Shown here in pieces: positions 5,194 through 53,959 of a stretch of 64,000 nt of DNA. Both the position numbers and the translations under genes were made by a program. This DNA comes from Chloroflexota bacterium (lineage in GTDB: Bacteria; Chloroflexota; Anaerolineae; Anaerolineales; Villigracilaceae), in contig JACRLB010000047.1 of NCBI GenBank assembly GCA_016235445.1, positions 62,001 to 126,000 on the forward strand. The letters are read 5' to 3'. Under the pieces are notes generated by a model, which was not told where the DNA came from, ran no database searches, and saw only the letters and a program-made list of their open reading frames with translations. Each line of letters starts with the position of its first letter. Position 1 is the stretch's first letter.

Positions 5194-5195
5194 TC

Positions 5196-6057: not shown

Positions 6058-6080
6058 TTGAGACTCCTTTGGGTGAAATG

Positions 6081-6116
6081 GGTAATTCGGTAATTGGTAA
6101 TTGAGTAATTGGTAAT
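6081..6116. repeat. TAATTGGTAATT tandem repeat between cyclase and four-helix-bundle genes
   Basis: Three to four units of the same family as 5196-5277. The last unit abuts the stop codon of the four-helix-bundle gene. Confidence 0.75.
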
Positions 6117-6598
6117 TATGTCTGAAGCCAGATAATATCGTCTTCGTCAAACAGGTTGCCTGATAAATTCTCCGCGATGTCAATCTGATATTCTGCTCCG
6201 ATCTCGCGCAAGGTTTTGGATTGTTTGGTTTCCTGATTTCGCACAGTCTTGAGACCGCTTGCAAATGTATTTAATTGGTGCGCCAAAGCCGTAATATTCT
6301 CGATATACTTTTGCACCTCAGAGTCTGGCATAAGATTGCGCGCCTTTACCCGATTGAGCCAGTACTTTGTCTCGAACAGACTTCCGCGAGCGTAATACAG
6401 AAATTGAAGCTTCTCACCAAAGTGATAACGTCCGAACGACTCGGAAATATTTGCGCCAATCGAATCTGCGGCACGTGTTATTTGTTTGCCGACAACATCT
6501 TTTGCAAAGTTATCCCATTTAACAACGATTTTCCAAACCGAGTCCGCAATTTCTTCGGCAGATTTCAATACTCGCAAGTCTTCAAACGTAGCTGACAT
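6116..6598 (-). CDS. Four helix bundle protein (S23/IVS-type)
   Basis: A 160-residue protein of the four-helix-bundle family first described from 23S rRNA intervening sequences and related to diversity-generating-retroelement Avd proteins. Diagnostic parts are FEDLRVLKSAEEIADSVW near the start, KQITRAADSIGANISESFGR in the middle and FLYYARGSLFETKYWLNRV. These proteins form basic oligomers that bind nucleic acid; the cellular role of stand-alone copies is not settled. The ATG at 6598 follows GGAGG by 5 bases. The gene sits in the middle of a catabolic operon and is bracketed by TAATTGG repeats, which suggests it was inserted there. Confidence 0.88.
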   Translation of the reverse strand: MSATFEDLRVLKSAEEIADSVWKIVVKWDNFAKDVVGKQITRAADSIGANISESFGRYHFGEKLQFLYYARGSLFETKYWLNRVKARNLMPDSEVQKYIENITALAHQLNTFASGLKTVRNQETKQSKTLREIGAEYQIDIAENLSGNLFDEDDIIWLQT

Positions 6599-6603
6599 CG
6601 CAA

Positions 6604-6660
6604 CCTCCAATTACTATTTACCAATTACGAATTACTCACTTACCAATTACCTAATTACAA
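6604..6660. repeat. TAATTGGTAATT tandem repeat overlapping the DUF1116 3' end
   Basis: Five or so ATTAC/CCAATTAC units. The final unit encodes the last residues of the DUF1116 protein, and the other end supplies the GGAGG of the four-helix-bundle gene. Confidence 0.75.
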
Positions 6661-7899: not shown

Positions 7900-7911
7900 G
7901 TTTAACTCCAT

Positions 7912-7953
7912 GTAATTTGTAATTGGTAATTACTACTTACCAATTACGATTTA
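7912..7953. repeat. TAATTGGTAATT tandem repeat between fdrA and DUF1116
   Basis: Four units of the TTACCAATTAC family fill the fdrA-DUF1116 gap and touch the fdrA stop codon. Confidence 0.75.
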
Positions 7954-9624: not shown

Positions 9625-10910
9625 AATTTGCTCACGAATTTCTCGATATCTTCTGCCCATGCCAGCAGGGATTCATCTTTGTGCCAATTGCCAATTATTT
9701 GCAGACCCATCGGCAGTCCATCCTGGTTTTTGCCCGCTGGCAGGTTGATGGCTGGCAAGCCTGCTTGCGTCCACGGAAGATTCATCACGGGGTCGCCTGT
9801 GCTTTCCAGGCCTTTGGGCGCTGGGCCAATTGTGGAAGGGGATAGCCATAGGTCGATGTTGTTGTCGATCATCGCCCGCCTGAGGTCTGCGCGGAAGGTG
9901 TCGCGGGCTTGAAGAGCGCTTTGGTATTGGGACCTGGTAATTTGTTGGCCGCGACGGATCAGATCGGAGAATTTGGCGGAGTAGAGATTTTCATGTTTGG
10001 CGAACCATTCTTTGTGGACCGTTGCCGCATCGTGAGACATGATGACATCGTGACGATTGCGGATTTTTTGATAATCGTCCATGATTGGAACGCGGCACAG
10101 TTCGTATCCTGCATCAGCGAGGGAAATGCAAATTGTGTTGAAGCAGGTTAGGGCGGAGTCTGAAGCGCAGTTCAGGTAGTCGCCTTCCGGGATTCCAAGA
10201 ATCGGATTCCGCTTGCCAGTCTCCAGTCTCCAGTCACTGATCAAAATACTTGCAATTTTTTTTGCCGTCAAAATGTCTGGCGTAAAAAATCCAACATGAT
10301 CAAATGAAGGGGAGAGGGGAATTACGCCGTTGCGAGAAATTCTTTCGTAGGTTGGTTTGAAGCCAACCACGCCGCAAAACGCGGCGGGACGAATGATCGA
10401 GCCAATGGTCTGCGTGCCAAGCGAGAGGTGGCAAAGCCCCGCGCCAACTGCGGCGGCGGAACCACTGCTCGAACCGCCTGGGGTGTGTTCGGGGTTGTGC
10501 GGGTTGCGCGTGGGGCCAGGTGTGAAGTAGGCAAATTCAGTGGTGACGGTTTTGCCGAGAATTAGCGCGCCCGCATTTTTGAGTCTGGCAACGCTTTCGG
10601 CTTCACTGCCTTGAAGCTCGTGCGATGGCAGACGACTGCCTGCCTGTGTGAGGAAACCGTCCACATGAAAAATATCTTTGACGCCGATCAACATTCCAAA
10701 AAGGGCGGGGCGATTGTATGGGTCTGGAAAACGCGAGGCAAGTTCCTCTGCCTCTTTGCGTAATCGCTCGAAACGATTCTCTTCAGGGAGGAAGGCAAGG
10801 ATGGAGGGTTCGCGGGAATCGAAGAGAGACTCGATTTGAGAGATGTAATTAGTAATTAATAATTCACCTGCGCGAAAGGCGCGAGTTATTTCAGATAGGT
10901 TCATCATCAT
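9621..10910 (-). CDS. Amidase (amidase signature family)
   Basis: A Ser-cisSer-Lys amidase of about 430 residues. The catalytic Lys lies in LIGVKDIFHVDGF, and the glycine/serine block TPGGSSSGSAAAVGAGLC holds the cis-Ser and nucleophilic Ser region, followed by GTQTIGSIIRPAAFCGVVGFKP. Family members hydrolyse carboxamides, ureido acids or allophanate. It is translationally coupled to fdrA by a 4-bp ATGA overlap, so it probably supplies or consumes the same ureido/amide intermediate. Start is uncertain: three consecutive ATGs at 10910, 10907 and 10904 precede NLSEITRAFRAGELL, and the frame is open to 10958. GELLITNYISQ is encoded by a TAATTGG-type repeat (10845-10866). Confidence 0.88.
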   Translation of the reverse strand: MMMNLSEITRAFRAGELLITNYISQIESLFDSREPSILAFLPEENRFERLRKEAEELASRFPDPYNRPALFGMLIGVKDIFHVDGFLTQAGSRLPSHELQGSEAESVARLKNAGALILGKTVTTEFAYFTPGPTRNPHNPEHTPGGSSSGSAAAVGAGLCHLSLGTQTIGSIIRPAAFCGVVGFKPTYERISRNGVIPLSPSFDHVGFFTPDILTAKKIASILISDWRLETGKRNPILGIPEGDYLNCASDSALTCFNTICISLADAGYELCRVPIMDDYQKIRNRHDVIMSHDAATVHKEWFAKHENLYSAKFSDLIRRGQQITRSQYQSALQARDTFRADLRRAMIDNNIDLWLSPSTIGPAPKGLESTGDPVMNLPWTQAGLPAINLPAGKNQDGLPMGLQIIGNWHKDESLLAWAEDIEKFVSKL

Positions 10911-10967
10911 TAATCTCAATATTGGTTTAATCGCCTGATGTGTCGGTGCATAAATCAAAAATAAAGC

Positions 10968-11798
10968 TTATTCACGAAAGACCTTCGTCCTGCTGACAAT
11001 GACGGCAACCACCCAGGTAAACCCAGCGTTAAGCAGGGATGTCATCCCAAACTGCGAGCCAATCGCGGATGGAAAGAATGCGGCGGTATTTACGGCGGTG
11101 TGAAATAGGATGGCGATCAACAAGTTGCCGTTTGTGCTCTTATATAGCCAGGTAAAAATGACAGCCAATCCCATTACCCAGATCACAAAGGCGGGAAATA
11201 AGACAAAAAACGATCCGCCTGTTTGGAGTATGTCGTTTTGCCCTGTGCCAGCGATAGCATAAATAGGTGCGTGCCAGATGCCCCAAATTAAACCGAGTAT
11301 CAGGCTGGCTTTCATGGTGTCTTTATTGCTTTGCAAAAGTCGAGGCAATGCAAAGCCGCGCCAGCCGATCTCTTCGCCCAGTGGCCCGCCAACGAAGAAG
11401 ATACGGATCCCCTCCAACAATAAGGGCAGGAGCCAAATGCTTATGTTGAGTTTGGTAGGTATAGGTGAACCCATACCGCTTCCGATTAACAGTGAGGCGA
11501 TAATAATGAGAAAAGGAATAAGCAGAGCAATGCCAATCCAGCTCAACCCTGCACGACCCATAGATACTCGCCCAATCAAATCAGATAATCCCTGTTTGCC
11601 GTTCAACACAACGCTCAAAATGATCCCTGCCAATGTGGGACCAAAGATTGCCAGCGCATTAAGGATGCTCCCAAGCGGATTTTTGATGTCAAGCGATAGC
11701 GCGATCATCACACCCCATAAAATCCATGTGATGGCGTAGGCAAGGCAAAAAAATATAATAAGTGGGCGCTGGCTTACAAATGTAGTTGTTTTCGACAT
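10968..11798 (-). CDS. CPBP family intramembrane metalloprotease
   Basis: A 276-residue protein with about eight membrane segments and the CPBP/Rce1 motifs: GEEIGWRGFALPRLL (EExxxR, glutamates for metal/water activation), LIWGIWHAPIYA (conserved His) and LLIAILFHTAVN (second His). CPBP proteins cleave or chaperone membrane or prenylated substrates, and some give bacteriocin self-immunity. It lies between the FeS subunit and the amidase on the same strand with short gaps, but a link to the catabolic pathway is not obvious. AGAGG precedes the ATG at 11798 by 10 bases. Confidence 0.88.
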   Translation of the reverse strand: MSKTTTFVSQRPLIIFFCLAYAITWILWGVMIALSLDIKNPLGSILNALAIFGPTLAGIILSVVLNGKQGLSDLIGRVSMGRAGLSWIGIALLIPFLIIIASLLIGSGMGSPIPTKLNISIWLLPLLLEGIRIFFVGGPLGEEIGWRGFALPRLLQSNKDTMKASLILGLIWGIWHAPIYAIAGTGQNDILQTGGSFFVLFPAFVIWVMGLAVIFTWLYKSTNGNLLIAILFHTAVNTAAFFPSAIGSQFGMTSLLNAGFTWVVAVIVSRTKVFRE

Positions 11799-11821
11799 GG
11801 AAATATCCTCTCGTAGTAAGT

Positions 11822-12307
11822 CTACTTAACTGCTTTCATCTTCTCACTTGCAAGTTTGACCGCATCCACGATATGTTGATAGCCCGTGCAACGGCAGAGA
11901 TTGCCCGAAAGCGCATGGCGGATTTCATCTTCGGTGGGGTTCGGGTTTTGTTTCAAGAATGGAATCAGTGTCATTAAAATCCCTGGGGTGCAGAAGCCGC
12001 ATTGCAGGCCGTGTGCTTCCCAGAAGGATTGCTGTACCGGGTGCAGGTTGTCTTTGTCTTTTGCGAGGCCTTCAACTGTTGTGATGTTGTGACCGTCCGC
12101 TTGAATGGCAAAAATCAAACACGAGCGCATGGATTCGCCGTCGAACAGAATCGTGCAGGCTCCGCAGACGCCGTGTTCACAGCCGACGTGCGTGCCCGTG
12201 AGCCCAAGTTCGTGGCGCAGGAAATCGCTGAGCAGGAGGCGCGGCTCCACTTCGCGCCTGTAAATTTTTTCGTTGACGGTGATCGTCACAGGGAATGATT
12301 GAGTCAT
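11822..12307 (-). CDS. (2Fe-2S)-binding small subunit of a xanthine dehydrogenase family enzyme
   Basis: A 161-residue small subunit carrying two [2Fe-2S] clusters. The plant-type cluster ligands are in CEHGVCGACTILFDGESMRSC (residues about 43-63), and the second, all-alpha cluster ligands are in LQCGFCTPG and NLCRCTGYQHIVDAV. It passes electrons from the Mo site to the FAD subunit. Its ATG overlaps the stop of the FAD gene by 4 bases (ATGA). Gene order FAD-FeS with the Mo gene distant is unusual, since CoxMSL-type operons normally keep the three together. Confidence 0.94.
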   Translation of the reverse strand: MTQSFPVTITVNEKIYRREVEPRLLLSDFLRHELGLTGTHVGCEHGVCGACTILFDGESMRSCLIFAIQADGHNITTVEGLAKDKDNLHPVQQSFWEAHGLQCGFCTPGILMTLIPFLKQNPNPTEDEIRHALSGNLCRCTGYQHIVDAVKLASEKMKAVK

Positions 12308-13185
12308 TGCAGGCTTTCCTCCGCGCGCTGTGCGGCTTGCTTCAATGCTTTCTTCGTCAACACATTTGCGAGATGACGCTGGAAATCAATCGAAGTATGA
12401 ATATTCCCAAAAGGGTTGATTTCCTTTTCGCTTGCCATCGCCGCCGCAGATTCGATCACCGCATCCTTCAACGCTTCACCCTCCAAAAGTCTGGCGGATT
12501 CTTTTGCATCCACGGGGCCATCGCCCGCATTCAAATAAACCAGCTTTGCGTTTTTGCATTTTCCATTTTCGTCCAGCGTCACCAATGCGGCCACGCCCAT
12601 CAACGCATAATCGCCTGCGCGCGGCGCAACCTCCATAAAAGACCAGCCTGTGCGCGGCGGCATAAATGGCAGTTCGATCTCAACCAGAATTTCATCAGCG
12701 GCAAGCCTGGTGGTGAACATGCCAGCGAAAAAATCATGCGCGTCGATCCAGCGTTCGCCAGATGCATTTTGCGCCTTGAGCCGCGCATCCAACGCCAGCG
12801 CCAGCACAGGCAGTTCCGCGGCTGGGTCGGCGTTGGCAATGCTTCCGCCAAGCGTGCCGCGGTTGCGAATTTGCGGATGCGCAATAAACTGCGCCGCTTC
12901 TGTTAAAAGCGGAATGTGTTTTTCGATGGAAGAGTCGAATTCCAAATGCCGTTCACGCGTCATCGCCCCAACGTGAATCGTTTCACCCTTTCCGCGAATA
13001 AAACTTAATTCACTCACCCGGTTTAGATCGATCAACACACCAGGCTGTGCCACGCGGAAATTCATCGCAGGCACAAGGCTTTGCCCGCCCGCTAAAATTT
13101 TTGCATCGCCTGCATACTGGCGCATCAAGCCCAATGCTTGTTCGAGCGAATCGGGAACGTGATATTCAAAGGGAGCAGGTTTCAT
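12304..13185 (-). CDS. FAD-binding medium subunit of a xanthine dehydrogenase family enzyme
   Basis: A 293-residue CoxM-like subunit. FAD-binding motifs are AKILAGGQSLVPAMNFR and NRGTLGGSIANADPAAELP, followed by the C-terminal CO_deh_flav_C domain. It would transfer electrons from the FeS subunit to an external acceptor. GAGG five bases upstream supports ATG 13185, and the 3' end overlaps the FeS gene by 4 bp. Confidence 0.94.
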   Translation of the reverse strand: MKPAPFEYHVPDSLEQALGLMRQYAGDAKILAGGQSLVPAMNFRVAQPGVLIDLNRVSELSFIRGKGETIHVGAMTRERHLEFDSSIEKHIPLLTEAAQFIAHPQIRNRGTLGGSIANADPAAELPVLALALDARLKAQNASGERWIDAHDFFAGMFTTRLAADEILVEIELPFMPPRTGWSFMEVAPRAGDYALMGVAALVTLDENGKCKNAKLVYLNAGDGPVDAKESARLLEGEALKDAVIESAAAMASEKEINPFGNIHTSIDFQRHLANVLTKKALKQAAQRAEESLQ

Positions 13186-13216
13186 AAAGCCTCAGAGAGA
13201 ATTGGAGAATAAGGGA

Positions 13217-14290
13217 TTAGAGACTGGAGACTGGCTTCGCTTCAAACTTAACTGACAACTGATTCTGTTTCCTGTGAGCTTCCACCACCTCAGACATAAT
13301 CGAGAGCGCGATCTCCTCAGGCGTTTGCGCGCCAATATCCAAGCCGATGGGCGCGCGCAGGCGGGAGAGTTGCGACTCACTCATGCCGTCGTTCAATAAT
13401 CTTGTGCGGCGTTTTGCATGTGTGGATTTGCTCCCCAGCGCGCCGACGTAAAACGCGGGGCTGGGTAGGGCAATCTTCAACGCGGGGTCGTCCAGTTTTG
13501 GGTCGTGTGTGAGCATGGCAATGGCCGTCGAGCGCGTCAACTTGATTTTTCCGAACGCATCGGGAATCCACAATGGAATGAGTTCATCCACATTCGGGAA
13601 ACGCTCTTCGTTTCCCCAAGCCTTGCGCGGGTCAACGAGAATCGTGCGGTAGCCAAGTGTCTTCGCCAGCGCGGCCAATGCAATCGCAATATGCACCCCG
13701 CCGACGATAACCAGCGTTGGGGGCGGCAGAATCACATCCAGAAAAACTTCAAGAGATTCGCTCAATACCGCGCGGTGTGAGAAGACGCCTTGTAAAAGAG
13801 CTTCCTTGCCAGGTTTTAACACCGTGTTGCGCCATTCGTTGCCAGGCGAACCCGCGATAATTCCATCTTCTGAAATCAATAATTCACAACCAAGAATTTC
13901 ATCCGAGCCGCGAATGACGGTTGCATGAACCGCCGGAGTTTCTTCTTTGATGATTGAATGCAGGGCTTGAAAGAAATTTGAATCAAGCAGATTGACGAAA
14001 ATATCTATGCTTCCCCCGCAGGCGAGACCCACCTCCCATGCCGTTTCATCCGCGACGCCAAAATGTAAAAGTTGAGGCCGCTTCGTTTTCAACGATTCAA
14101 CCCCCGCCTCGAAGACCGCATTTTCCACACAGCCACCGCTGACCGAGCCTGTGATTTTGCCGCTCGCTGTCAGCGCCATCTGTGAACCCGCTTTGCGCGG
14201 CGAGGAACCCCAGGTTTGCACCACTGTGGCAAGCGCAATGGACTCCCCCTCCCTTTGCCAGCGTTCCACGTCAGACAAAATATCGCGCAT
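13217..14290 (-). CDS. XdhC/CoxI family molybdenum-cofactor maturation protein
   Basis: A 357-residue XdhC-type chaperone, which inserts sulfurated Mo-cofactor into xanthine dehydrogenase family enzymes. The N-terminal XdhC_CoxI domain has ATVVQTWGSSPRKAGSQM and GSVSGGCVENAVFE with the conserved Cys; the C-terminal Rossmann domain has LVIVGGVHIAIALAALAKTLGYR and FYVGALGSKSTHAKRR. Usual size. The last residues (FEAKPVSSL) are encoded by a GAGACTGGAGACTGG repeat, so the C-terminus has been redrawn by a repeat. It sits 16 bp after the CoxG-like gene and 31 bp before the FAD subunit gene. Confidence 0.93.
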   Translation of the reverse strand: MRDILSDVERWQREGESIALATVVQTWGSSPRKAGSQMALTASGKITGSVSGGCVENAVFEAGVESLKTKRPQLLHFGVADETAWEVGLACGGSIDIFVNLLDSNFFQALHSIIKEETPAVHATVIRGSDEILGCELLISEDGIIAGSPGNEWRNTVLKPGKEALLQGVFSHRAVLSESLEVFLDVILPPPTLVIVGGVHIAIALAALAKTLGYRTILVDPRKAWGNEERFPNVDELIPLWIPDAFGKIKLTRSTAIAMLTHDPKLDDPALKIALPSPAFYVGALGSKSTHAKRRTRLLNDGMSESQLSRLRAPIGLDIGAQTPEEIALSIMSEVVEAHRKQNQLSVKFEAKPVSSL

Positions 14291-15578: not shown

Positions 15579-15674
15579 ATGACAAGGAACGGCAGTAAAA
15601 AAGAAATCCAGCAAGACAAAAGTAAGTCAGGCTGGACCATCTCAATCAATGACAGGAGAAACTGCAATGGCTAA
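15579..15674 (+). CDS. Possible 31-residue leader peptide before the permease
   Basis: A short reading frame starts at ATG 15579, directly behind AGGAAGGAGA, encodes a basic, polar peptide (MTRNGSKKEIQQDKSKSGW...) and stops at 15672-15674, eight bases into the permease gene. The overlap would allow translational coupling. Nothing about the peptide is recognisable, the Shine-Dalgarno spacing is short, and it may be chance. Confidence 0.25.
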   Translation: MTRNGSKKEIQQDKSKSGWTISINDRRNCNG

Positions 15675-17037
15675 AAGTAATTTAATGGGTTACATGCCCA
15701 ACGATTCTCCCCCGATGGGACAAACCATCCTGTTGGGCTTCCAGCATGTGTTGACCATGTTCCCAGCCACTGTGTTTGTGGCTGCGTTCTGTGGTTTCCA
15801 TGTGGGTACGGTGCTCTTTGCCTCCGGCGTTTCGACAATTGTGGCTCTCATTCTTTCCCGCCGAGGTATTGGAACTTTCATCCCCTTGTTCTACGGCTCG
15901 AGCTTCAGCTATATTGCGGCTTATTTGGGAATTATTCAAGCGGCAACCGGCCAGGCATATGTAAATTTCAGTGGCCCAGTGCCAGACCAGGTGCTCAGTT
16001 TGATGCAGGCGGGCATCGTCGTGACTGGCTTGATCAACATCGCGGTTGGTTTCCTCATCCGCGCAGTTGGCAAGGATAATTTGGATAAAGTTTTGCCGCC
16101 CGTGGTAACGGGTTCCGTGGCGGCCATCATCGGCTTCGGCCTTGCATTCGCCGCCGTTGGAAACCTTGCCAGTAATAACTTCCTTGTGGCGCTGATCACA
16201 CTCGTGCTTACGATTTTGTTCTCGGTATATTTGCAGAACAAAGGATTTGTCGGGATGCTGCCCATCCTCCTCGGAGGCGTCGCGGGCTACATTATTTCCG
16301 CCATTATTGCGCCTGGCTCGGTTAGCGCGGCCGGCATTGCCTCTGCTCCCTGGTTCGAGATTCCACACTTTACCTTCCCCTCGTTCAGCGGCGATTTGGT
16401 AGCCACCGCCATTGTAAGCATTTCGATCATGGCTATCGCCACGATCCCCGAATCCACGGCGCACCTGTACCAAATGAGCCTGTACATTGACCGCTTTGCC
16501 GAAGATACCGGCCGCGAGAAAGTTGGCATAGACAAGCACGTTGGGTTCAACTTGATCCTGGACGGTATCGGAGATTTCCTCAACGGCCTCGTTGGCGCAA
16601 CCTCAGGAACAAATTACGGCGAAAACAACTCGCTCATGGCAATCACCCGTAACTACTCCGGCCCGGCATTGATTGCGGCTGGCGTCATTGCCATCCTGCT
16701 TGGGTTCATTGGCAAACTTGCGGCGCTGGTTAATTCTGTCCCGTTGGCGGTCAGCGGCGGGCTGGCAGTATATTTGTTTGGCGTCATTGGAATGCAGGGT
16801 ATCGCGCTGATGCAGGAACATAAGGTCAGCATGTTCGACCCGCGTAACCTGGCAGTCGGCGCTGTGATTATGGTGGTAGGTATTGGCGGCAACATCGGCT
16901 ATCCGGGCGGCTTTATCCCGGTCAGCATCCCTGGCGTTTTTCCAAGCGGCCTGCCCGCCATCGCCACCGCGGCGGTACTTGGCATCCTCATCAACGCCAT
17001 CTTCCTGATCTTTAAACCATCCGCCACCGAAGCCTAA
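15667..17037 (+). CDS. NCS2 family nucleobase permease (xanthine/uracil type)
   Basis: A 456-residue NCS2 (nucleobase/ascorbate) transporter with about 14 membrane segments. It shows the TM1 LLGFQHVLTMFPATV (QH motif), IPESTAHL in the TM8 region and the family signature in TSGTNYGENNSLMAITR (N-x-G-x4-T-R-like). It would import a purine or pyrimidine with H+ or Na+. The sequence leans to the uracil-permease branch, but the substrate cannot be fixed. ATG 15667 follows AGGAG by 9 bases and matches the family start MAKSN. Divergent from the Mo-hydroxylase operon, so it probably imports its substrate. Confidence 0.9.
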   Translation: MAKSNLMGYMPNDSPPMGQTILLGFQHVLTMFPATVFVAAFCGFHVGTVLFASGVSTIVALILSRRGIGTFIPLFYGSSFSYIAAYLGIIQAATGQAYVNFSGPVPDQVLSLMQAGIVVTGLINIAVGFLIRAVGKDNLDKVLPPVVTGSVAAIIGFGLAFAAVGNLASNNFLVALITLVLTILFSVYLQNKGFVGMLPILLGGVAGYIISAIIAPGSVSAAGIASAPWFEIPHFTFPSFSGDLVATAIVSISIMAIATIPESTAHLYQMSLYIDRFAEDTGREKVGIDKHVGFNLILDGIGDFLNGLVGATSGTNYGENNSLMAITRNYSGPALIAAGVIAILLGFIGKLAALVNSVPLAVSGGLAVYLFGVIGMQGIALMQEHKVSMFDPRNLAVGAVIMVVGIGGNIGYPGGFIPVSIPGVFPSGLPAIATAAVLGILINAIFLIFKPSATEA

Positions 17038-18467: not shown

Positions 18468-18598
18468 TTTTTGGGTTCCTGAAATCATGGCATTGTCAAC
18501 AGACTCTATCACGAACTCTCGAACATAAGTAGACTTCTGTCACAGCATTTCTCCCAACTATCATGTAGAATCCAAACATCTTAGAATGGAGATTGAAC

Positions 18599-19099
18599 AT
18601 GCTCAAAAAATATTTTGCTTTAATACTTGCACTGGGAATGTTGATTCCTGCAACGCTCGTCCTTGCCAAAGGTGAATTTGATTACATCACCATCAAAGGG
18701 CCTGGCATCACGGGAGAGATCGATGTGACCAACCCCGCGCTGACGCAGGATTTCTTTGCCTTTGCCGATTTCTCGAAAGGCGAAGTTCCCGCGCCCGCCG
18801 ACGCGGGGCAGGGCTATCAGATTGTGCGCGTGTACGTGGAGTTTACCGATAGCAAGCCCAAAGACCTGCCGTTCGACCAGCTTCATTATTACCCGTACAC
18901 GGGCTATGTCTATTACGATGGCGTGGTGGAGGGTTCATCGGAATACGATGGCAAATGGTACGCCGCCAATCCCACAGCCGAAGCGCCCGTTCGCAATGTG
19001 CTCGTCCAGCGCGCCCTGCTCGCGTGGATTCCGTTTGGGGTGTTGGTGGTGATTCTGATTGGGTTTTTTATCGCGTACAACAGGAAGCCAAAAGCATAA
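18599..19099 (+). CDS. Predicted membrane-anchored exported protein, unknown function
   Basis: A 166-residue protein with an N-terminal signal peptide (LKKYFALILALGMLIPATLVLA), an exported domain of about 110 residues rich in Tyr, Asp and Gly (FDYITIKGPGITGEIDV, YYPYTGYVYYDG), and a C-terminal membrane helix (LLAWIPFGVLVVILIGFFIA) with a short basic tail. I do not recognise the domain. GGAG eight bases upstream supports ATG 18599; an in-frame TTG at 18593 is less likely. It is convergent with the cytochrome b fusion, so a shared role is possible but unproven. Confidence 0.75.
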   Translation: MLKKYFALILALGMLIPATLVLAKGEFDYITIKGPGITGEIDVTNPALTQDFFAFADFSKGEVPAPADAGQGYQIVRVYVEFTDSKPKDLPFDQLHYYPYTGYVYYDGVVEGSSEYDGKWYAANPTAEAPVRNVLVQRALLAWIPFGVLVVILIGFFIAYNRKPKA

Positions 19100-19181: not shown

Positions 19182-21272
19182 TTATCTCAACACAAACACA
19201 TCCAACTTCTCATCATATGCAAGGATCAACGCCTTGCCTTTCTCAAAATTCACCTCGCCCGAAAACGACAGGCGGTAATCGTCTGAGTCGTCTTTGATCC
19301 ACACTTGCACTTGATGGGCGCCTGGTTCAATTTCCAAAAATTCCAGCGCAGAGATGCGTCCGTTGCCGCTGATGCCGGAGGGCTGGTAGGTCTCGTCCCA
19401 AATCGTTTCACCGTCCACGATCACGCGCAGGCTGATGGGGAAATGCGTGCCGCCGAAAATCTTCACGGGGTCGGCGTCTTCGGGCAGGGTGATGCCTTCG
19501 GGGATGTTCGCCGCTTCGATCCTGCCTTTCGCATCGATTGCGATTCGCAATGCGCTTCCCTCTGCCGCGCTCATTCCAGCGGATACATCCAGCGGCAGGG
19601 CCAGCGCGAACAGCGCAAGCAGGAACACCGTCCCAACCAACCCGCTCACCAGCGACGGAATCAATGTACTGCGTTCCTTCACCACAGGCAAAACAGGCGC
19701 GGATTTTTTCTCCTGCGTTTCGGGCTTGTGCAGATCGTTCAAAAAATTTTCAACCGCTTTTGCATCGCCTGGCGTGGCTTCGAGCCAGTGCAGTTCCTTC
19801 GTCACCAGCGCGGGGCGCATGTGCAGGCGGTTCAAAATCCAATGCGCGTCTTCGCGGTTGAGGCTGTCGTCGTAGGGCTGTGAAAGGATGACGACATCGC
19901 GCGCGCCTTCGTGATGCAGTGACTTGATCCATTCGATATTGACCGCGCTCGCAGACGGTAAAATCGCGGTGACGACGCGCGCCGCTCCTTCTCCGCCCCA
20001 AGCTGATACAACAACTGGAGCATTTTCCTCCCCGAAAGCCCTCATCCCCAGCCCTTCTCCCACAGGGAGAAGGCAGGCAGGCAGGCTTCCCAATGCTTCA
20101 TCGCGCTGACTGGCGAACAGAACAGTCACTTCATGTCCGTCTTTTTTCTCGCGGTGCAACGCGCCTTTTACCACGCTAAAAATCTGCTCGCTGTTGTAGC
20201 CGCCTTGCAAGTCAATCGCATCGGTGGGGCAGGCCCCCACGCAGATGCCGCATCCTGTGCATTGCGCCGTGTTGATGATGGCGAGCTTGTGATATTTCGT
20301 CTCGTCGTGACGTTCCACCATGCCGATGGCATCATACGGACATTCGGCATAGCAGATGTTACAGCCAGTACACTTTGGATCGGTAACGGCAGCAGGCCCC
20401 AGGTCACGTCCTGAGGCGAGCCAGGGGAGCAGGAACAAACTGCCGCCGACGAGAATCGCCAGAGTCCAAAAAATCAAATTGCCCCATGAATCTATCAAGG
20501 GCAGAAAGCCGAGATAATACGCATCCATCGGCACGGATTGGATGAGGGTGGCGAGGTCGGCTTCGGCGAAGGATTGCACAGGTTTGATGAGCGAGAGAAT
20601 GACCAGCCCGATGACTGCCTGAATGCTGACCCAGCGCGGCGACCACCAGCGCGCGCGGGAGAGTTTTAAACCGTGAATGTAAATGCCGAGAAAACCGATC
20701 AGCGGCAGAAAAATATGCAAAAAGATGATAATGACGAAGTTGGAAAACGTGCGCGACTCGATGTCGGTTGCCACGTAGGTCAGCCCCGAGGTTGCTTCCA
20801 GCGTTTGCATCATGTATTCGGTCATCCATTGCGCGCGCAAATCCCAGACCATCCAATAGCCCATCGTGCCTGTCAGCCATGTGCCCGCCAGCATGACCCA
20901 GCCGCTCGTCCACGCCAGCCAGCGCTGTCCCCAAAATTTGTCGCTGAATAGCATTTTGAGAATGTGCAGGATGATGAGCAGGATCATCGCGTCTGATGCG
21001 TAGCGGTGGACACTGCGCATGAGCGAGCCGAACCAGTTCGAGTCGATTTTTTCGACGGTGGCGTAGGCCACGTCCAAACCTGGGCGGTAAATGGCGGTGA
21101 GGTAGACACCCGTTGCGATCAACACGATGAGCATGAAGATGGTCAACGTGCCGAGGTGATACAGCGGGTTGAAATCCGATTTGGTGAATCGGTTGACCAG
21201 GCCTTCGAGGCGTGACCAGAGTTTTTCAAATGCGCGGAGGGTTTTGCGTTCTGCGTAGGGGTTGGAGGTCAT
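19182..21272 (-). CDS. Cytochrome b N-terminal domain / 2x[4Fe-4S] ferredoxin / MvhD-like fusion protein
   Basis: A 696-residue membrane redox protein. Residues about 35-210 are a cytochrome b domain with two His pairs, H89/H103 and H186/H200, both 14 apart, to hold two b hemes. Further helices reach to 285. A cytoplasmic 2x[4Fe-4S] ferredoxin follows (Cys 301/304/307/311 and 338/341/344/348), then a domain resembling hydrogenase/heterodisulfide-reductase delta subunits but with no cluster cysteines, a membrane helix near 565-585 and an exported C-terminal domain. It probably moves electrons between ferredoxin-level donors and quinone (inference). ATG 21272 follows AAGGAAATT. A repeat palindrome is read in frame at 20036-20092. 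Confidence 0.85.
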   Translation of the reverse strand: MTSNPYAERKTLRAFEKLWSRLEGLVNRFTKSDFNPLYHLGTLTIFMLIVLIATGVYLTAIYRPGLDVAYATVEKIDSNWFGSLMRSVHRYASDAMILLIILHILKMLFSDKFWGQRWLAWTSGWVMLAGTWLTGTMGYWMVWDLRAQWMTEYMMQTLEATSGLTYVATDIESRTFSNFVIIIFLHIFLPLIGFLGIYIHGLKLSRARWWSPRWVSIQAVIGLVILSLIKPVQSFAEADLATLIQSVPMDAYYLGFLPLIDSWGNLIFWTLAILVGGSLFLLPWLASGRDLGPAAVTDPKCTGCNICYAECPYDAIGMVERHDETKYHKLAIINTAQCTGCGICVGACPTDAIDLQGGYNSEQIFSVVKGALHREKKDGHEVTVLFASQRDEALGSLPACLLPVGEGLGMRAFGEENAPVVVSAWGGEGAARVVTAILPSASAVNIEWIKSLHHEGARDVVILSQPYDDSLNREDAHWILNRLHMRPALVTKELHWLEATPGDAKAVENFLNDLHKPETQEKKSAPVLPVVKERSTLIPSLVSGLVGTVFLLALFALALPLDVSAGMSAAEGSALRIAIDAKGRIEAANIPEGITLPEDADPVKIFGGTHFPISLRVIVDGETIWDETYQPSGISGNGRISALEFLEIEPGAHQVQVWIKDDSDDYRLSFSGEVNFEKGKALILAYDEKLDVFVLR
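20036..20092. repeat. CTTCTCCC/GGGAGAAGG palindrome inside the cytochrome b fusion gene
   Basis: CCCTCATCCCCAGCCCTTCTCCC, a short loop and GGGAGAAGGCAGGCAGGCAGG, of the same family as 2586-2625, 47280-47350 and 62470-62510. In frame it encodes about SLPACLLPVGEGLGMRAFGE (residues near 396-415), interrupting the MvhD-like domain. Confidence 0.75.
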
Positions 21273-21287
21273 AATTTCCTTTTTAAA

Positions 21288-21350
21288 ACCACAAAGTGTC
21301 ACGAAGGGTCACAAAGGTTTTCCTTCGTGTCCTTTGTGACCCTTCGTGGT
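21288..21350. repeat. ACCACGAAGGGTCACAAAGG palindrome
   Basis: ACGAAGGGTCACAAAGG (21301-21317) faces CCTTTGTGACCCTTCGT (21331-21347) perfectly, with CCACAAAGTG/CGTGG shoulders. A diverged copy lies at 56597-56680. Located between the copper ATPase stop and the cytochrome b fusion RBS. Confidence 0.85.
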
Positions 21351-23761: not shown

Positions 23762-24670
23762 TTATTCTTTCTTGTTTGAACTTTTCAATCCATCGCGCAG
23801 TTGTGTTGACAGATTGAACAAATCTTCCAATTCTGATTCGTTCAAACAACTCCACGGAGCAAAGAAGTATTTGTCGGTGAGCGCTTCGGCTTCTTCGCGG
23901 ATGCGTTTGCCTTCGGCGGTCAGTTGATACTCGCCTGATGTTTCTTCGATCCATCCGCGTTCCGCGAGTTCCTGTAAAAATTCGGCGTATTCAGGGCGGG
24001 TGATTCCGCGAAACGACAATTCTTCGAACAGTTTATCAAGCGTATTATTCTTGCCGCCCCATATTTCGGAGAACACTTCCCAGCGATTGCCTTCGATGTT
24101 GTAGTGTTTCCAGGTGGCAAGGTGGGCATTGCCGCGATATTTATCCAGCGTGCCAAAGTAGTGGATGAAGAAGCGAAGCAGGCGTTCACCCTCGCCTGGG
24201 TACATATTCTTGAAATAGTGACTCGCTCCAAATTTGGATGGCGGTTCGGGCGCGGCAAGCGAGGCCTCGGTGATACGCCTGCCATAGTTCACTATTTTTT
24301 GCAGATCGGGGGGCGGAATCGGTTGGAGGTGGGCAATGGAGTTACTGGCCGCCTGGGTCATTTGATTTCTCCAATCCATTCCTTTTTCTGTTGCGTGATA
24401 TTCGTTTTCTCCACTGGCAATCAGAATTCCATGTTTGATTGCTCCTCCAAACCGAGCCTCGAGTACGCGCGCTGAACCGTAGGGGAAGAGGCGCATGAAG
24501 CCCGCGGTTGAGAATGGATCGGAGCCGAAGACAAAGAGCGCCGAGAGCCAGGTGATCCACCCGGGTTCAAACCCCTGTTCGGTGGCGATTTTCTGCCAGA
24601 CGGAATAGGCGTTTTCATTCAGCGGGTCGAAACTCTCGTCGAGAACAGTCCAGATGGAATTCAGGTTCAT
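23762..24670 (-). CDS. Winged-helix-containing protein resembling SCO6745 family
   Basis: A 302-residue soluble protein. The pattern of a helical N-terminal half (SIWTVLDESFDPLNENAYSVWQ, ALFVFGSDPFSTAGFMRLFPYG) and a C-terminal winged-helix-like segment (FLQELAERGWIEETSGEYQLTAEGKRIREEAE) ending in LTDKYFFAPWSCLNESELEDL is typical of the SCO6745/MarR-like proteins annotated as helix-turn-helix containing. Function unknown; the tail resembles MarR regulators. It lies 15 bp before the copper ATPase on the same strand, so it may regulate it, but this is only contextual. Confidence 0.6.
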   Translation of the reverse strand: MNLNSIWTVLDESFDPLNENAYSVWQKIATEQGFEPGWITWLSALFVFGSDPFSTAGFMRLFPYGSARVLEARFGGAIKHGILIASGENEYHATEKGMDWRNQMTQAASNSIAHLQPIPPPDLQKIVNYGRRITEASLAAPEPPSKFGASHYFKNMYPGEGERLLRFFIHYFGTLDKYRGNAHLATWKHYNIEGNRWEVFSEIWGGKNNTLDKLFEELSFRGITRPEYAEFLQELAERGWIEETSGEYQLTAEGKRIREEAEALTDKYFFAPWSCLNESELEDLFNLSTQLRDGLKSSNKKE

Positions 24671-24690
24671 GGGATATCTCCTGATGTTAC

Positions 24691-24843
24691 AGGACTTACG
24701 CAGTTCAAAATCTTTAGCCGCGAATTTACCCTACGGGCACGATGTCGCGAATTCCCGCTAATTTTTTGAATAATTCGTGCGAATTTGCGACATCGTGCCC
24801 GTAGGGTAAATTGGCGGCAGTTCTTGGGGTCTTGCGTAGTCCT
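24691..24843. mobile_element. MITE-like element, copy 1
   Basis: A 153-bp non-coding unit with ends AGGACTTACGCAG and CTTGCGTAGTCCT (imperfect terminal inverted repeats). Inside are two perfectly complementary 24-base arms, 24725-24748 and 24787-24810, built around CCCTACGGGCACGATGTCGC. A second copy with the same ends lies at 53671-53798 and lacks the right inner arm. No transposase is encoded, so mobilisation would need one elsewhere. The remainder of the gap to 24942 holds only a small hairpin (CGCAAGAT/ATCTTGCG) near 24918. Confidence 0.8.
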
Positions 24844-24942
24844 ATTTTATTTGGTTTTGTCAGTACTGCGAACCTTCGGTGAACGCTGGGCGATCATTTG
24901 TGCTGCCTTGCCAACCGCGCAAGATGAATCTTGCGGTACTTT

Positions 24943-25626
24943 CTACCAGAACATGAACGAACCAAGCATGAAGTGGTCAACGATGCCGAGGGAGGCGAAT
25001 CCGCGCATGGCGAATTGGAAGCCGAAGAACATCATGACGAGGGAGGCGAGGGTGCGCGACCAGAGGCGGGGGTTGGTTTTTGTTGCCAGCCATTTGACGG
25101 CGTACAAACTTGGGAGGGTGGCGAGGCCAAAGATGAGCATGGTTAGCGCGCCGTTGATGGCGGATTTGGAGGCGGCGGCGGTGATGAGCGCGGTGAGAAC
25201 CAGGCCGCAGGGGAGGAGACCCCAAAGGAGGCCGAGCAGGTAGGAGGTCCAGAGAGAGGCGGTTTTGAATCTGCGGATGGCGCGCCCCCAGCGTTGAGTC
25301 CATTTTGAAAATAAAAGTTCGGGGGAGGGGGTTAATCCAATAAATGCGGATGCCATGTAGAAGGCGATGATTGCGAAGAGAATCGAGAGGAGGGCTTGCA
25401 GGTTTCCGAACGACCAGAGGGTTTGGCCGAAGATACCGAAGAGGAGACCGAGCAGGGTGTAGGTGGTGACGCGCCCCGCGTGGGCGAGAACCCAGGCGAG
25501 TTTGTTTTGCCCATTGGGCGCTGTGCGGAAGATGGGTTGGCGGTCGAAGAGAATGACGATGGCGCTGCACATCCCCACGCAGTGACCAAGGCTGCCAAGC
25601 AGGCCGAGAAGAAGTGATGCGATCAT
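24943..25626 (-). CDS. DsbD_2 / TauE-like membrane protein (COG2836 type)
   Basis: A 227-residue protein with six or so membrane helices. It starts IASLLLGLLGSLGHCVGMCSAIVI, the GHCxGMC signature of the DsbD_2/UreH-like membrane family (COG2836), whose genes often accompany cytochrome oxidase and copper ATPase (ccoI/fixI) genes. Likely part of copper handling or cytochrome/oxidase maturation. Located 69 bp after heme-copper subunit I and before the FixI-like pump on the same strand, fitting that role. Confidence 0.85.
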   Translation of the reverse strand: MIASLLLGLLGSLGHCVGMCSAIVILFDRQPIFRTAPNGQNKLAWVLAHAGRVTTYTLLGLLFGIFGQTLWSFGNLQALLSILFAIIAFYMASAFIGLTPSPELLFSKWTQRWGRAIRRFKTASLWTSYLLGLLWGLLPCGLVLTALITAAASKSAINGALTMLIFGLATLPSLYAVKWLATKTNPRLWSRTLASLVMMFFGFQFAMRGFASLGIVDHFMLGSFMFW

Positions 25627-25695
25627 TTTTTACCAGTAAGTTGATCCCGCCCGAAGAGGTGGTTCTTCGGGCGGGATATACAAGGAGAGAGTGCG

Positions 25696-27423
25696 TTATT
25701 TAATGAACCAGGTGCGCCCGAGTAGCCACCAGTTGGAGAGGTAGTAGACTGCGAACCAGACGAGGAAGGCGAAGACGAGAACCAGTGTGCCTTTGGGTTG
25801 GTTCTGTTTGTCTTCCATTTGTTCGTCGGTGAGTTTGGTGGATTCGAGCAGGGGGTTGTTAGCGCCGTTGACGAGGAGCAGTCCGCTGGCTTCTTTGCGT
25901 TCGCCCGTGAGAATGGAGGTGAGTACGATGGCGACATACATGATGCCGCCGATGACTGCGATGATCGCGCCGATGCCGAAGATGGCAAGCGTGAGGTTGA
26001 CGGTGCCAGGGATTGCGCCGGAGAAGGTGATGTCCCAGTTGCGGCGGGAGACGCCTTGTAAGCCGCTGGTGATCATACCCAGCGAGACGAGTGCGGAACC
26101 GATGCCGTAAACGTAGGGCTGCCAGACCGCCCATTTTTTGAGTTTGAGTTCTTTGCGGAAGATGAGCGGGATGACGTAATAGGTGAAGCCCATGAAGGCG
26201 GTGGTTGTGCCGCCGACGACGGTGGCGTGGAAGTGACCGGGCAGGCGCAGGGTGTTGTGGGCGAGCATGTTGATCTGTTCGGTGCCGATGGTGACGCCTG
26301 TGACGCCGCCGATCCAGCCGAAGAGAATCATGGAGACGACGAGCGCGCCGAAGCCGGGTTCATTCCAGGGGCCGTTGCGAAGCCAGCCGAACAGGCCGTG
26401 TCGATATCCTTTTGCGCGCAGGGCAATTTCCATGGCGGCGGGGATGGAGAAGGCGTGCATCATCGAACCCAGCACGGCGAGGTACATGGCGTAGGATGTG
26501 TTGACGGCTTTCCATGCGAAGGTGAGGCCAGGGTCAACCAAAAGGTGGTGGGCTGAGCCGAGGTTGATGAAGAAGAGATAGAGGATGAAGGCGAAGCGTG
26601 AGAACTTCTCGTTGACGGGGCGGATGCCAACGGTCATTTGTGCGAGCATGTACCAGATGGAAACCATCGCGGCGAGGTTGACCTGTTGGGCGGGGTGGCC
26701 GAAGCCCCAGAAGAAGTTGCGGTAGATGCCTGGGTCGTAATTGGGAAACACGCCCAGCGACCAGAGGAAGGCGGGCACAATGGCGGCGGCGCCTTCGAGC
26801 AGGGTGTAGACTGCCAGGATGGCGGCGGTCATCAAGCCGAAAACTGCCAGCGGCATGGAACCTGAGAAACGTCCCTCACGTTTGGCGACTACGATATTGA
26901 TGAAGAAGGTAATGGTGGTGATCAACGCGCCGACGGCGAAGAGGATGTAGCTAAGGTAGAAAAGCGGGTGAGCTTTGAGCGGCACATAGGCGGTGAAGGT
27001 GACGATGCTTTTTGGGTCGAACAGTACGACTGCATTCGCCATCAAACCACCGACGGTCATCATGATGAAGCCCGTCCATGCCAGTTTGGGGGCGGCGTGA
27101 CGCGCATTCAACAAGGCGGTGGAGCCGAAGTGCAAGCCTGCCATTTCGAAGAACACGATCCAAGCAACGAGCATATCCACGCCGTGCAGGGTGAGCAGGC
27201 GGTAGAACCAGGTGGCATCGAGCAGGTGGATCGCCTGCCAGCGGGTGAGGGCGATCAATAACGCTGCGATTCCGCCAAGCACGAGGCAGACAACCGCCAT
27301 CACCGCGTTGGCAATGATGAGGCGTTCGGTGTGCATATCCACTTTGAGGGTGGTCACGCCGCAGACGCGGTAATCATCCTTTGCGCCTTTTACCCAGGGA
27401 GTTGTTGGGGCAAGTGTAGCCAT
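25696..27423 (-). CDS. Heme-copper oxidoreductase subunit I, B-family-like, possible NO reductase (eNOR-like)
   Basis: A 575-residue, 12-14-helix catalytic subunit. B-family landmarks are all there: LLTLHGV (low-spin heme His), AHHLLVDPGL (two CuB-type His) and LPGHFHATVVGG (heme ligands). The third CuB-type His is H243 in WGFGHPAQQVNL. In ba3-type oxidases this reads GHPxVY with the Tyr cross-linked to His; here that position is Gln247. No Tyr is available there, so O2 reduction chemistry is doubtful. Loss of this Tyr is a mark of NO-reducing members of the superfamily, including the CuA-containing eNOR type. Third gene of a small subunit/II/I operon; 10 bp after subunit II. Confidence 0.88.
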   Translation of the reverse strand: MATLAPTTPWVKGAKDDYRVCGVTTLKVDMHTERLIIANAVMAVVCLVLGGIAALLIALTRWQAIHLLDATWFYRLLTLHGVDMLVAWIVFFEMAGLHFGSTALLNARHAAPKLAWTGFIMMTVGGLMANAVVLFDPKSIVTFTAYVPLKAHPLFYLSYILFAVGALITTITFFINIVVAKREGRFSGSMPLAVFGLMTAAILAVYTLLEGAAAIVPAFLWSLGVFPNYDPGIYRNFFWGFGHPAQQVNLAAMVSIWYMLAQMTVGIRPVNEKFSRFAFILYLFFINLGSAHHLLVDPGLTFAWKAVNTSYAMYLAVLGSMMHAFSIPAAMEIALRAKGYRHGLFGWLRNGPWNEPGFGALVVSMILFGWIGGVTGVTIGTEQINMLAHNTLRLPGHFHATVVGGTTTAFMGFTYYVIPLIFRKELKLKKWAVWQPYVYGIGSALVSLGMITSGLQGVSRRNWDITFSGAIPGTVNLTLAIFGIGAIIAVIGGIMYVAIVLTSILTGERKEASGLLLVNGANNPLLESTKLTDEQMEDKQNQPKGTLVLVFAFLVWFAVYYLSNWWLLGRTWFIK

Positions 27424-27433
27424 CTTATTTCTC

Positions 27434-27964
27434 CTATTTCACGATAATTTTGCCGATCATGGTGTGATGGCCGAGGGAGCAAAATTCATTGCAGACGATG
27501 GTGAATTCGCCTGTGGTGGTGGGGGTGATGGTCGCCACATAATCGTAGCCGGGCAAAACCTGCAAGTTGATGTTGACAGGCTGAAGCGAGAAGCCGTGCA
27601 GTAGATCCATCGAGGAAATGTGCAGGCGGTATTCCGATCCCTTTTGGAATTGCAGAATGGGGAACCACTGCCATGTGCTGGCACGCAGGTAGACATCGCT
27701 TCCGGCGGGGGCTTCCACAACGGGCAAAGTGACGCCATTGACCGTATCTTCGCCGACTTTATATTGTTCGACGAAAGCGTTGATTTTTTCGTTGAATTGA
27801 GTGGGCGTGGTTCGGTAGGTTTCGGCTGGGACGTTTTGCCTGCCCATAAAGTACCAGAGCGGCATCATGATCGTCAAAAACACACACCAAACAAAAGCCA
27901 CCGTGAGCCAGGTCTTTTCCATGCGGCCCAGGGGTTTCCACCAGATTTTTTCAGGTGCTAACAT
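27434..27964 (-). CDS. Heme-copper oxidoreductase subunit II with CuA site
   Basis: A 176-residue subunit II with one N-terminal helix (TWLTVAFVWCVFLTIMMPLWYFM) and an exported cupredoxin domain. The CuA ligands are complete: His in SMDLLHGFSL, then VCNEFCSLGHHTMIG (C-x3-C-x3-H-x2-M). ASTWQWFP matches the aromatic electron-entry patch. It accepts electrons from a cytochrome c or cupredoxin and passes them to subunit I. A strong AAAAGGAGAATGAATT leader precedes ATG 27964. Confidence 0.95.
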   Translation of the reverse strand: MLAPEKIWWKPLGRMEKTWLTVAFVWCVFLTIMMPLWYFMGRQNVPAETYRTTPTQFNEKINAFVEQYKVGEDTVNGVTLPVVEAPAGSDVYLRASTWQWFPILQFQKGSEYRLHISSMDLLHGFSLQPVNINLQVLPGYDYVATITPTTTGEFTIVCNEFCSLGHHTMIGKIIVK

Positions 27965-27983
27965 AATTCATTCTCCTTTTTGC

Positions 27984-28142
27984 CTATGGGGCGAGTGGAA
28001 CGTGCAACAGATCGTACAATCCCCATGCGTTGTAAATTAACCCACTGATGAGCAGTGAAAGCAGGAACAACAACCAGATGTTGTCGAAAACTTTCTGCCA
28101 CTTGGAGGCGGATTCGTTTTCTTGATTTTCTTTCTTCGCCAT
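27984..28142 (-). CDS. Small one-helix subunit of the heme-copper complex (52 residues)
   Basis: A 52-residue reading frame, MAKKENQENESASKWQKVF followed by one membrane helix (IWLLFLLSLLISGLIY) and a short exported tail. AAAGGAG precedes ATG 28142 and another AAGGAG follows its stop for subunit II 19 bp on, so it is the first gene of the operon. Position and topology match the tiny IIa-type subunits of B-family oxidases. No sequence motif proves the role. Confidence 0.8.
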   Translation of the reverse strand: MAKKENQENESASKWQKVFDNIWLLFLLSLLISGLIYNAWGLYDLLHVPLAP

Positions 28143-28418
28143 GACATTCTCCTTTGTGTAATGTGGTTTTTTTCACAAAATTTATCTGAATTAGATGTAT
28201 CTTACATAATCCCAGCCAGGTTAGCAGTGACTTTTGTTACATTTGAAAGTTTTGCTTTGGAATTTTGTAGAAAACAGGGAAATGACCTGTCCGAAAGACG
28301 GGCTTTTTGCACGTTTGCAGGGGTAAACCCCAACCCAAACCTTCACCTGCTCTTTGCCCTGTCTTTACACGATCTTTAAACATGCCTGTTATTCTTAAAT
28401 CATAAAAAGGAGTACAGC

Positions 28419-28592
28419 ATGTTTCTGATGTGGATCATTCCCCTGCTATTAATTGGATTGGTGGTCTATGGCGTCTCTGCCGGCAACTTTGTCAGTTCTT
28501 TGAAACCCGCCGCCAGCCGCGCCTGCCTGCATTGCAATCAAGCCGTGCAAAACGATTGGAAGAACTGCCCGCACTGTGGACAGACTCTATAA
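28419..28592 (+). CDS. Small membrane protein with C-terminal zinc ribbon (57 residues)
   Basis: One N-terminal membrane helix (LMWIIPLLLIGLVVYGVSA) and a C-terminal double-CxxC zinc ribbon (CLHCNQAVQNDWKNCPHCG). AAAAAGGAG sits before ATG 28419. The tail is clearly paralogous to that of the next gene (CPNCGKGIQADWQNCPYCG), so this pair arose by duplication. Function unknown; the ribbon is of the zinc_ribbon_2/double zinc ribbon type seen in many small bacterial membrane proteins. Confidence 0.8.
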   Translation: MFLMWIIPLLLIGLVVYGVSAGNFVSSLKPAASRACLHCNQAVQNDWKNCPHCGQTL

Positions 28593-28604
28593 AAGGAAAA
28601 CAAA

Positions 28605-28949
28605 ATGAAAAAGATTAACTGGTTGATCGTTGGAATTATTGCCCTGATCGCCCTTCTCTTCCTGTTTGGAGGAGGAATGATGTCAGGCTGGGGCTATCGC
28701 GGCTGGGGCATGATGGGGCCGGGGATGATGGGAAATTGGGGCTACTCTCCCTTCGGCTGGATCGGCATGGCCTTCATGTGGCTGATCCCCGTTGGCTTCA
28801 TTGTATTGACCGTGCTGGGCATTACCTGGCTTGTACAGAATGTCGGAAATTTCAGGATGCCACCCTCTCAGAATCCTTGTCCCAATTGCGGGAAGGGCAT
28901 ACAAGCCGATTGGCAAAATTGTCCGTACTGCGGTACAGCGTTGAAGTAG
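28605..28949 (+). CDS. Membrane protein with Gly/Met-rich loop and zinc ribbon
   Basis: A 114-residue protein: helix 1 (INWLIVGIIALIALLFLFGGG), a loop rich in Gly, Met and Trp (MMSGWGYRGWGMMGPGMMG), helix 2 (WIGMAFMWLIPVGFIVLTVLGITWLV) and a zinc ribbon (CPNCGKGIQADWQNCPYCG). The Met-rich loop could bind copper, which would fit the neighbouring copper ATPase and heme-copper genes, but this is inference. AAAAGGAAAACAAA leader before ATG 28605; co-transcribed with the preceding gene. Confidence 0.8.
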   Translation: MKKINWLIVGIIALIALLFLFGGGMMSGWGYRGWGMMGPGMMGNWGYSPFGWIGMAFMWLIPVGFIVLTVLGITWLVQNVGNFRMPPSQNPCPNCGKGIQADWQNCPYCGTALK

Positions 28950-52910: not shown

Positions 52911-52989
<79 letters not shown>

Positions 52990-53947: not shown

Positions 53948-53959
53948 CTCAATTTTTGA

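Follow-up and report, generated by a model that had tools for sequence, protein, structure and literature searches.

The cited source for the eNOR family of nitric oxide (NO) reductases is reportedly Hemp and Gennis (2008), and the primary paper on the family is said to be Murali et al. (2024). In passages of PMC8756737, a Gln at the position of the crosslinked Tyr is the published criterion for eNOR, and members are reported from Anaerolineales and other Chloroflexi. Table A4 of the same source, in which nNOR does not appear, gives this active-site residue as Q for eNOR alone, as N for sNOR and CuANor, and as D for gNOR; cNOR and qNOR are tabulated with Glu. A passage of PMC11388526 counts eNOR among the biochemically characterized NO reductases and another describes bNOR (qCuANOR) as found only in Bacillota to date. 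For Ardenticatena maritima, an operon of eNOR with NirK has been described (PMC4653789). The eNOR family and its presence in Chloroflexota are already in print, and the gene described here is a further member.

We analyzed a window of 64,000 nt (the whole stretch of DNA under study) from a Chloroflexota genome, in which a first-pass annotation, made from the letters alone, had recognized a heme-copper subunit I with Gln in place of the crosslinked Tyr. The reading frame is real, complete and starts with ATG; its strand, which had been left unstated, is the minus strand, and a plus-strand reading of the same interval was rejected because it is interrupted by stop codons (Table 1). The numbering of H243 and Q247 is right (YRNFFWGFGHPAQQVNLAAMVSIWY), and the metal-ligand histidines are kept as claimed (H80, H243, H292/H293, H397, and H399). 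Alignment with the ba3-type motif GHPxVYFWLLPAY places Gln247, four residues after H243 (GFGHPAQQVN), at the position of the crosslinked Tyr. Thus, the crosslinked Tyr that marks the B-family O2 reductases, placed four residues beyond the first CuB His, has given way to Gln here, and neither the Asn or Asp of bNOR, sNOR, and gNOR nor the Glu of cNOR and qNOR is present at this site. Judged from these and the following sequence comparisons, the gene very probably encodes an eNOR-type NO reductase.

Table 1. Features of the putative eNOR locus, in window coordinates
Feature	Coordinates	Strand	Remarks
Putative eNOR subunit II with CuA site, 176 aa	27434..27964	-	10 bp upstream of subunit I
Putative eNOR subunit I, heme-copper subunit I	25696..27423	-	575 aa; PF00115 210 bits
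H80, helix II low-spin heme ligand	27184..27186	-	100/100 eNOR rows; coordinates by arithmetic
GHPAQQVN motif, residues 242-249; H243 = CuB ligand	26677..26700	-	coordinates by ORF arithmetic
H292-H293, remaining CuB ligands	26545..26550	-	100/100 eNOR rows; coordinates by arithmetic
H397-F-H399, high-spin and low-spin heme ligands	26227..26235	-	100/100 and 99/100 eNOR rows; coordinates by arithmetic
DsbD_2-family membrane protein, 227 aa	24943..25626	-	PF13386 147 bits; 24/80 best named loci
Winged-helix (HTH_67) protein, between DsbD_2 and ATPase genes	23762..24670	-	2/80 best named loci (L034, L038)
Heavy-metal P1B-type ATPase, 798 aa	21350..23746	-	N-terminal Cys-rich stretch and HMA domain; 24/80 best named loci
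Partner protein: cytochrome b6-like, 2x[4Fe-4S], FlpD-like, TM helix, C-terminal beta domain	19182..21302	-	706 aa from GTG

The subunit I alignment comprised 138 rows, namely the window protein and 137 loci; three of the 140 loci (L059, L062, and L065) were left out because their longest frame was shorter than 450 aa, and L144–L153 are duplicate genes of L024–L033. Gln was found in 100 rows, all scoring at least 300 bits against the window protein, and Tyr in the other 38, a clean split at 300 bits; 99 of the Gln rows and 28 of the Tyr rows were distinct core sequences. A smaller alignment, restricted to loci of the phylum, showed the same division, with Gln in the group close to the window protein and Tyr in the B-family relatives. 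The six heme and copper histidines were kept in all 100 eNOR rows, apart from a single Lys replacing the low-spin His of helix X. The eNOR motif turned out to be wider than first described, with Q246, Q247, and N249 in 100 of 100 eNOR rows versus V, Y, and W in 37 B-family rows. Residues present in all 100 eNOR rows and in fewer than 10% of the B-family rows include C21, E93, Q246, Q247, N249, Y282, N308, Y311, H323, and P328. In a collection of species genomes, at least 551 stretches encoded a relative, the best 80 of which are called named loci here; the closest of these (L034) was 96% identical to the window protein, which suggests an Anaerolineales-like member of the Chloroflexota as the host. 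The motif GHxxQQxN was present in 79 of these best 80, and the remaining one (L065) ends inside the motif. Because Gln occurs in all 100 rows of at least 300 bits and the motif in 79 of the best 80 named loci, Gln247 is not the result of chance or of a sequencing error.

Two trees were computed with the motif columns removed. In the first, with 65 rows and an A-family outgroup, the Gln rows fell on one side of a branch with an SH-aLRT value of 99. As the branch to this outgroup was very long, the analysis was repeated without it and without seven duplicate or near rows (57 rows), and here the Gln rows were on one side of a branch with 100/100 support. The phylogeny that had been proposed as a check thus puts the protein outside the Tyr-bearing B-family rows, in trees without bNOR, sNOR, and gNOR references. 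All eight non-eNOR proteins among the 14 plasmid records examined (40 listed of 59 matched) have Tyr, so that none of them could serve as such a reference, and bNOR, sNOR, and gNOR are therefore excluded by the diagnostic residue (Q versus N, N, and D). Among 301 genomes of the phylum, 41 had a match at 1e-20, 20 of them at 45% identity or more, and nothing lay between 45% and 33%.

Subunit II, which the first-pass annotation had called intact, can indeed be aligned across its CuA domain (LHGF...CNEFCSLGHHTM) with the ba3 subunit II 1ehk_B (E 8e-16), and its CuA ligands match those of ba3; the Pfam COX2 score is just below the cut-off (21.4 versus 22 bits). The ligand pattern C-x3-C-x3-H-x2-M was found in 75 of the 76 loci having subunit II among the best 80 named loci; in the one deviating locus, L066, an insertion interrupts the motif, and no subunit II was obtained for the other four of the 80. 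Gln247, the tree placement, and the intact CuA subunit support the proposal of an NO reductase of the eNOR kind and argue against an oxidase. The locus shares with the described eNOR family the Gln at the Tyr position, the six histidines, the CuA subunit II directly upstream, and the reported occurrence in Anaerolineales; nothing diagnostic differs, and the window cluster has in addition genes for DsbD_2, a copper ATPase, and a cytochrome b-FeS protein.

The expectation that automatic annotation would call such a protein an oxidase was borne out. The Thermus, Thermomicrobium, and Defluviimonas plasmid orthologues are labelled 'cbb3-type' or 'b(o/a)3-type cytochrome-c oxidase', and the best NCBIfam match of the window subunit I is the oxidase model CtaD_CoxA (83 bits, cut-off 671). 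Misannotation of eNOR genes as cytochrome oxidases is also stated in a passage of PMC8756737. Because eNOR tends to be annotated as oxidase, the capacity to convert NO to N2O is probably undercounted in Chloroflexota and other phyla. As a separate observation, four of four Thermus thermophilus plasmid eNORs examined (L157, L168, L169, and L170; 11 Thermus records matched, and three of these four proteins resemble each other in the compared stretches) have GHFK and not GHFH, with Lys at the expected helix X low-spin heme His, and keep the helix II His.

The host genome (4.13 Mb, 98% complete) encodes three PF00115 proteins, an A-family protein (HPAVY), a ba3-like protein (HPLVY), and the window eNOR, none of which is a cbb3 subunit by its motifs. 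It also encodes NarG (1484 bits), NrfA (439 bits), and NirK (331 bits, cut-off 296); the NirK frame has a CxxCH motif near its N-terminus and no Pfam cytochrome c domain, and it lies on contig C11, with eNOR on C39. No match to NirS was found in the genome, and no NosZ over the cut-off; five matches below it cover the C-terminal cupredoxin end. Because genes for the path from nitrate to N2O are present and no NosZ exceeds the cut-off, the host is likely to be a source of N2O, a greenhouse gas. Across the phylum, NirK over the cut-off or NirS was found in 13 of 20 eNOR-positive versus 30 of 281 eNOR-negative genomes (odds ratio 15.5, p 6.7e-8; the draws are not independent, and relatedness within the phylum inflates these values), which leaves seven eNOR-positive genomes with neither over the cut-off. 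In one genome (G080), NirK is about 0.9 kb from eNOR, and nirK- or nirS-like genes lie inside 16 of the best 80 named loci (11 of them with at least 300 bits, among these the locus of the query itself). On contig C11 of the host (L138:9333-15647), a copper-type P-type ATPase and a DsbD_2-cupredoxin fusion are encoded divergently from NirK. The FNR/DNR box TTGATN4ATCAA had 50 matches in the window versus a mean of 39.2 in shuffled sequences, which is not significant (5 of 100 shuffles were as high), and scanning 24500-28700 for promoters and terminators brought no decisive result.

The AlphaFold model of subunit I (pLDDT 82.8) has an ordinary fold, with a ba3 oxidase as the best PDB match (TM 0.78). 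The sequence identity is 22-24% to ba3 chains by structural alignment and 29-33% to the B-family relatives in the phylum. The window protein has the fold, the ligands, and the short CuA subunit II in common with the ba3 oxidase of Thermus thermophilus, but differs from it at three positions (Y237 to Q247, Y244 to V254, and T312 to H323). We take the K-channel of ba3 to comprise Y237, Y244, Y248, S309, and T312, with an offset of 10 in helix VI. S309 is kept as S320 and Y248 as Y258 in the window protein; both are found in 100 of 100 eNOR rows, together with Ser or Thr at position 326 in 91 of 100, whereas V/I254 and H323 are unlike the B-family rows. Because S320 and Y258 are kept while Q247, V254, and H323 differ, a K-like proton path may persist in altered form.

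The enzyme could still be an oxygen reductase of a divergent clade if another Tyr replaced the lost one, as in cbb3, in which the substitute is presumably the helix VII residue six positions ahead of the HH pair. At the outset, a Tyr contributed by a different helix had been named as a finding that would speak against an NO reductase. At the cbb3-equivalent position, thus located, none was found, with Ile or Leu in all 100 eNOR rows; however, helices VII and VIII do carry eNOR-specific tyrosines, namely Y282 and Y311 in 100 of 100 and Y314 in 97 of 100 eNOR rows, and Tyr in 0 of 37 B-family rows at these positions, any of which might take over the role. We nevertheless consider oxygen reduction very unlikely and rejected this reading on the tree, the residue, and the two other oxidases of the host, one from each of the A- and B-families; the enrichment of nir genes in eNOR-positive genomes and the report of eNOR as a characterized NO reductase (PMC11388526, in the passage mentioned above) point in the same direction.

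Still less probable is an NO reductase of another non-canonical family, i.e., bNOR, sNOR, gNOR, or nNOR. According to a passage of PMC11388526, these families are B-family-related as well, and none of them is represented in the trees. Like the window protein, bNOR (qCuANOR) of Bacillus azotoformans is a B-family-related NO reductase with CuA, but it has N at the active site, as tabulated in PMC8756737; the residues listed there are N for sNOR and CuANor and D for gNOR, with Q in eNOR alone among the families of that table, which omits nNOR. In addition, GHxxQQxN is common to all 79 readable loci of the best 80. An isolated loss of the catalytic Tyr in a dead or scavenged oxidase pseudogene would look alike, but this was rejected as next to impossible given the full-length frame, the six histidines, the Q/Q/N motif across many phyla, and the intact CuA partner 10 bp away.

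As an eNOR, the enzyme would work as follows. The CuA site of subunit II would take up electrons and pass them to the low-spin heme (H80/H399), from which they would reach the binuclear site formed by the high-spin heme (H397) and CuB (H243, H292, and H293), where NO would be reduced to N2O. With the redox-active, crosslinked Tyr lost in favor of Gln247 (and its invariant neighbors Q246 and N249), this site would be deprived of the residue that normally donates an electron and a proton for O–O cleavage. We infer NO as substrate, N2O as product, and any energy conservation from the residues and the genome content. In the host, nitrate would be reduced to nitrite by NarG, nitrite to NO by NirK, and the chain would end at N2O, with eNOR removing the NO made by NirK.

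The genes downstream of subunit I would form a probable accessory set, in which the DsbD_2 protein, the copper P-type ATPase, and the cytochrome b-FeS protein serve either copper delivery and reduction during assembly or the electron feed. The DsbD_2 protein is a probable maturation factor, and the ATPase appears to be CopA2/CcoI-like. The winged-helix gene is probably an optional passenger or regulator because so few of the best named loci have a homologue. SCO (38 of 80) and heme O synthase (39 of 80 best named loci) are common neighbors in other phyla; no SCO was found by Pfam among the scanned genes of the window cluster. A 168-aa protein without a Pfam match (18593-19099) is convergent with the cluster, and it is kept at the far end in 11 of the best 80 named loci.

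The cytochrome b-FeS gene, called the partner gene below, may alternatively start at an ATG at 21272, resulting in 696 aa; in this numbering, the bis-His pairs are H89/H103 and H186/H200. The core is complex III-like by Foldseek. The FlpD part has a Pfam match in relatives and none in the window protein, in which, as judged by eye, this region is degenerate and misses Cys residues conserved elsewhere; the alignment profile matches MvhD-type chains. A PADL...DWxY stretch resembles the PEWY loop of cytochrome b by eye only and was not used as evidence. A combination of cytochrome b6, DMSOR beta-like, and FlpD domains is listed for RME88945.1 in an appendix table of PMC8756737.

The partner gene was found in 60 of the best 80 named eNOR loci, versus 3 of 19 B-family oxidase loci (p 2.9e-6), all three from the window genome's own family; the control stems from one phylum, includes several short contigs, and was retrieved with queries taken from eNOR loci (20 regions fetched, minus a NirK region). 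Among the 56 named eNOR loci of the best 80 with at least 6 kb downstream, 52 have it: 22 of 22 in Pseudomonadota, 18 of 21 in Chloroflexota, the one unassigned locus, not the one from Fraseribacteriota, and all loci of seven further named phyla with one to three each. Within the window genome's family, a near full-length match at 1e-20 was present in 8 of 8 eNOR-positive versus 0 of 9 eNOR-negative genomes; across the whole phylum, the window query matched in 9 of 20 eNOR-positive genomes (three candidates scored per genome). The annotated region of the Defluviimonas plasmid includes the gene, and those of a Thermus and the Thermomicrobium plasmid do not list it. In the titles and abstracts searched, a set outside which the primary eNOR paper lies, no description of a link between eNOR and this gene was found.

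A paralogue in the same genome, which adjoins the ba3-like oxidase, has a cytochrome c domain at its C-terminus (25 bits versus a cut-off of 21). It is a cytochrome b-2[4Fe-4S]-FlpD-cytochrome c fusion on contig C11 (L137:8945-11293), and in two other genomes of the family (L139 and L140) the oxidase likewise has a homologue as its neighbor. No CcoG-type entry was found for the partner among all 13 Pfam matches, the best 25 of 78 NCBIfam matches, the best 60 of 234 PDB sequences, and the best 50 of 1174 PDB folds. The locus resembles the ccoGHIS assembly genes of cbb3 in combining a copper ATPase with a membrane ferredoxin-type protein, but the window partner has a bis-heme cytochrome b core and another domain order.

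The association of this gene with most eNOR loci and few of the oxidase loci examined raises the question of how eNOR is supplied with electrons or copper, and two roles fit the partner. Electron delivery fits because of the complex III-like core and the cytochrome c domain of the paralogue. Reduction of a copper center during assembly fits because of neighboring SCO, copper ATPase, and DsbD_2 genes and the analogy to CcoG/CcoI, CcoG being a cupric reductase according to a passage of PMC8475189. We lean slightly toward electron delivery. A more specific proposal, which we regard as tentative and rather unlikely in full, is that eNOR does not act alone and that, across phyla, the operon encodes a Rieske-less, complex III-like cytochrome b with a cytosolic 2[4Fe-4S] part (plus a FlpD/MvhD-like part in relatives). 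Spanning the membrane, this protein would conduct electrons to eNOR from quinol or from an iron-sulfur donor; it might even divide the electrons of quinol, one share going to NO reduction and the other to a low-potential iron-sulfur acceptor, and the cytochrome c paralogue of the same genome would serve the ba3-type oxidase.

Elsewhere in the window, a tRNA-Sec gene (anticodon tca, 53854-53948) lies near a tRNA-Pro gene (52911-52986) and is followed by two open reading frames (54035-56583) without an NCBIfam match at 1e-30. The region 2860-14290 harbors molybdenum hydroxylase-type genes. One encodes a large subunit that scores 932 bits against an aerobic CO dehydrogenase group model and so narrowly misses its cut-off of 950; others encode an FdrA-type protein (530 bits versus a cut-off of 433) and an XdhC-type maturation factor (217 of 350 bits). 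An NCS2-like nucleobase permease is encoded at 15649-17037.
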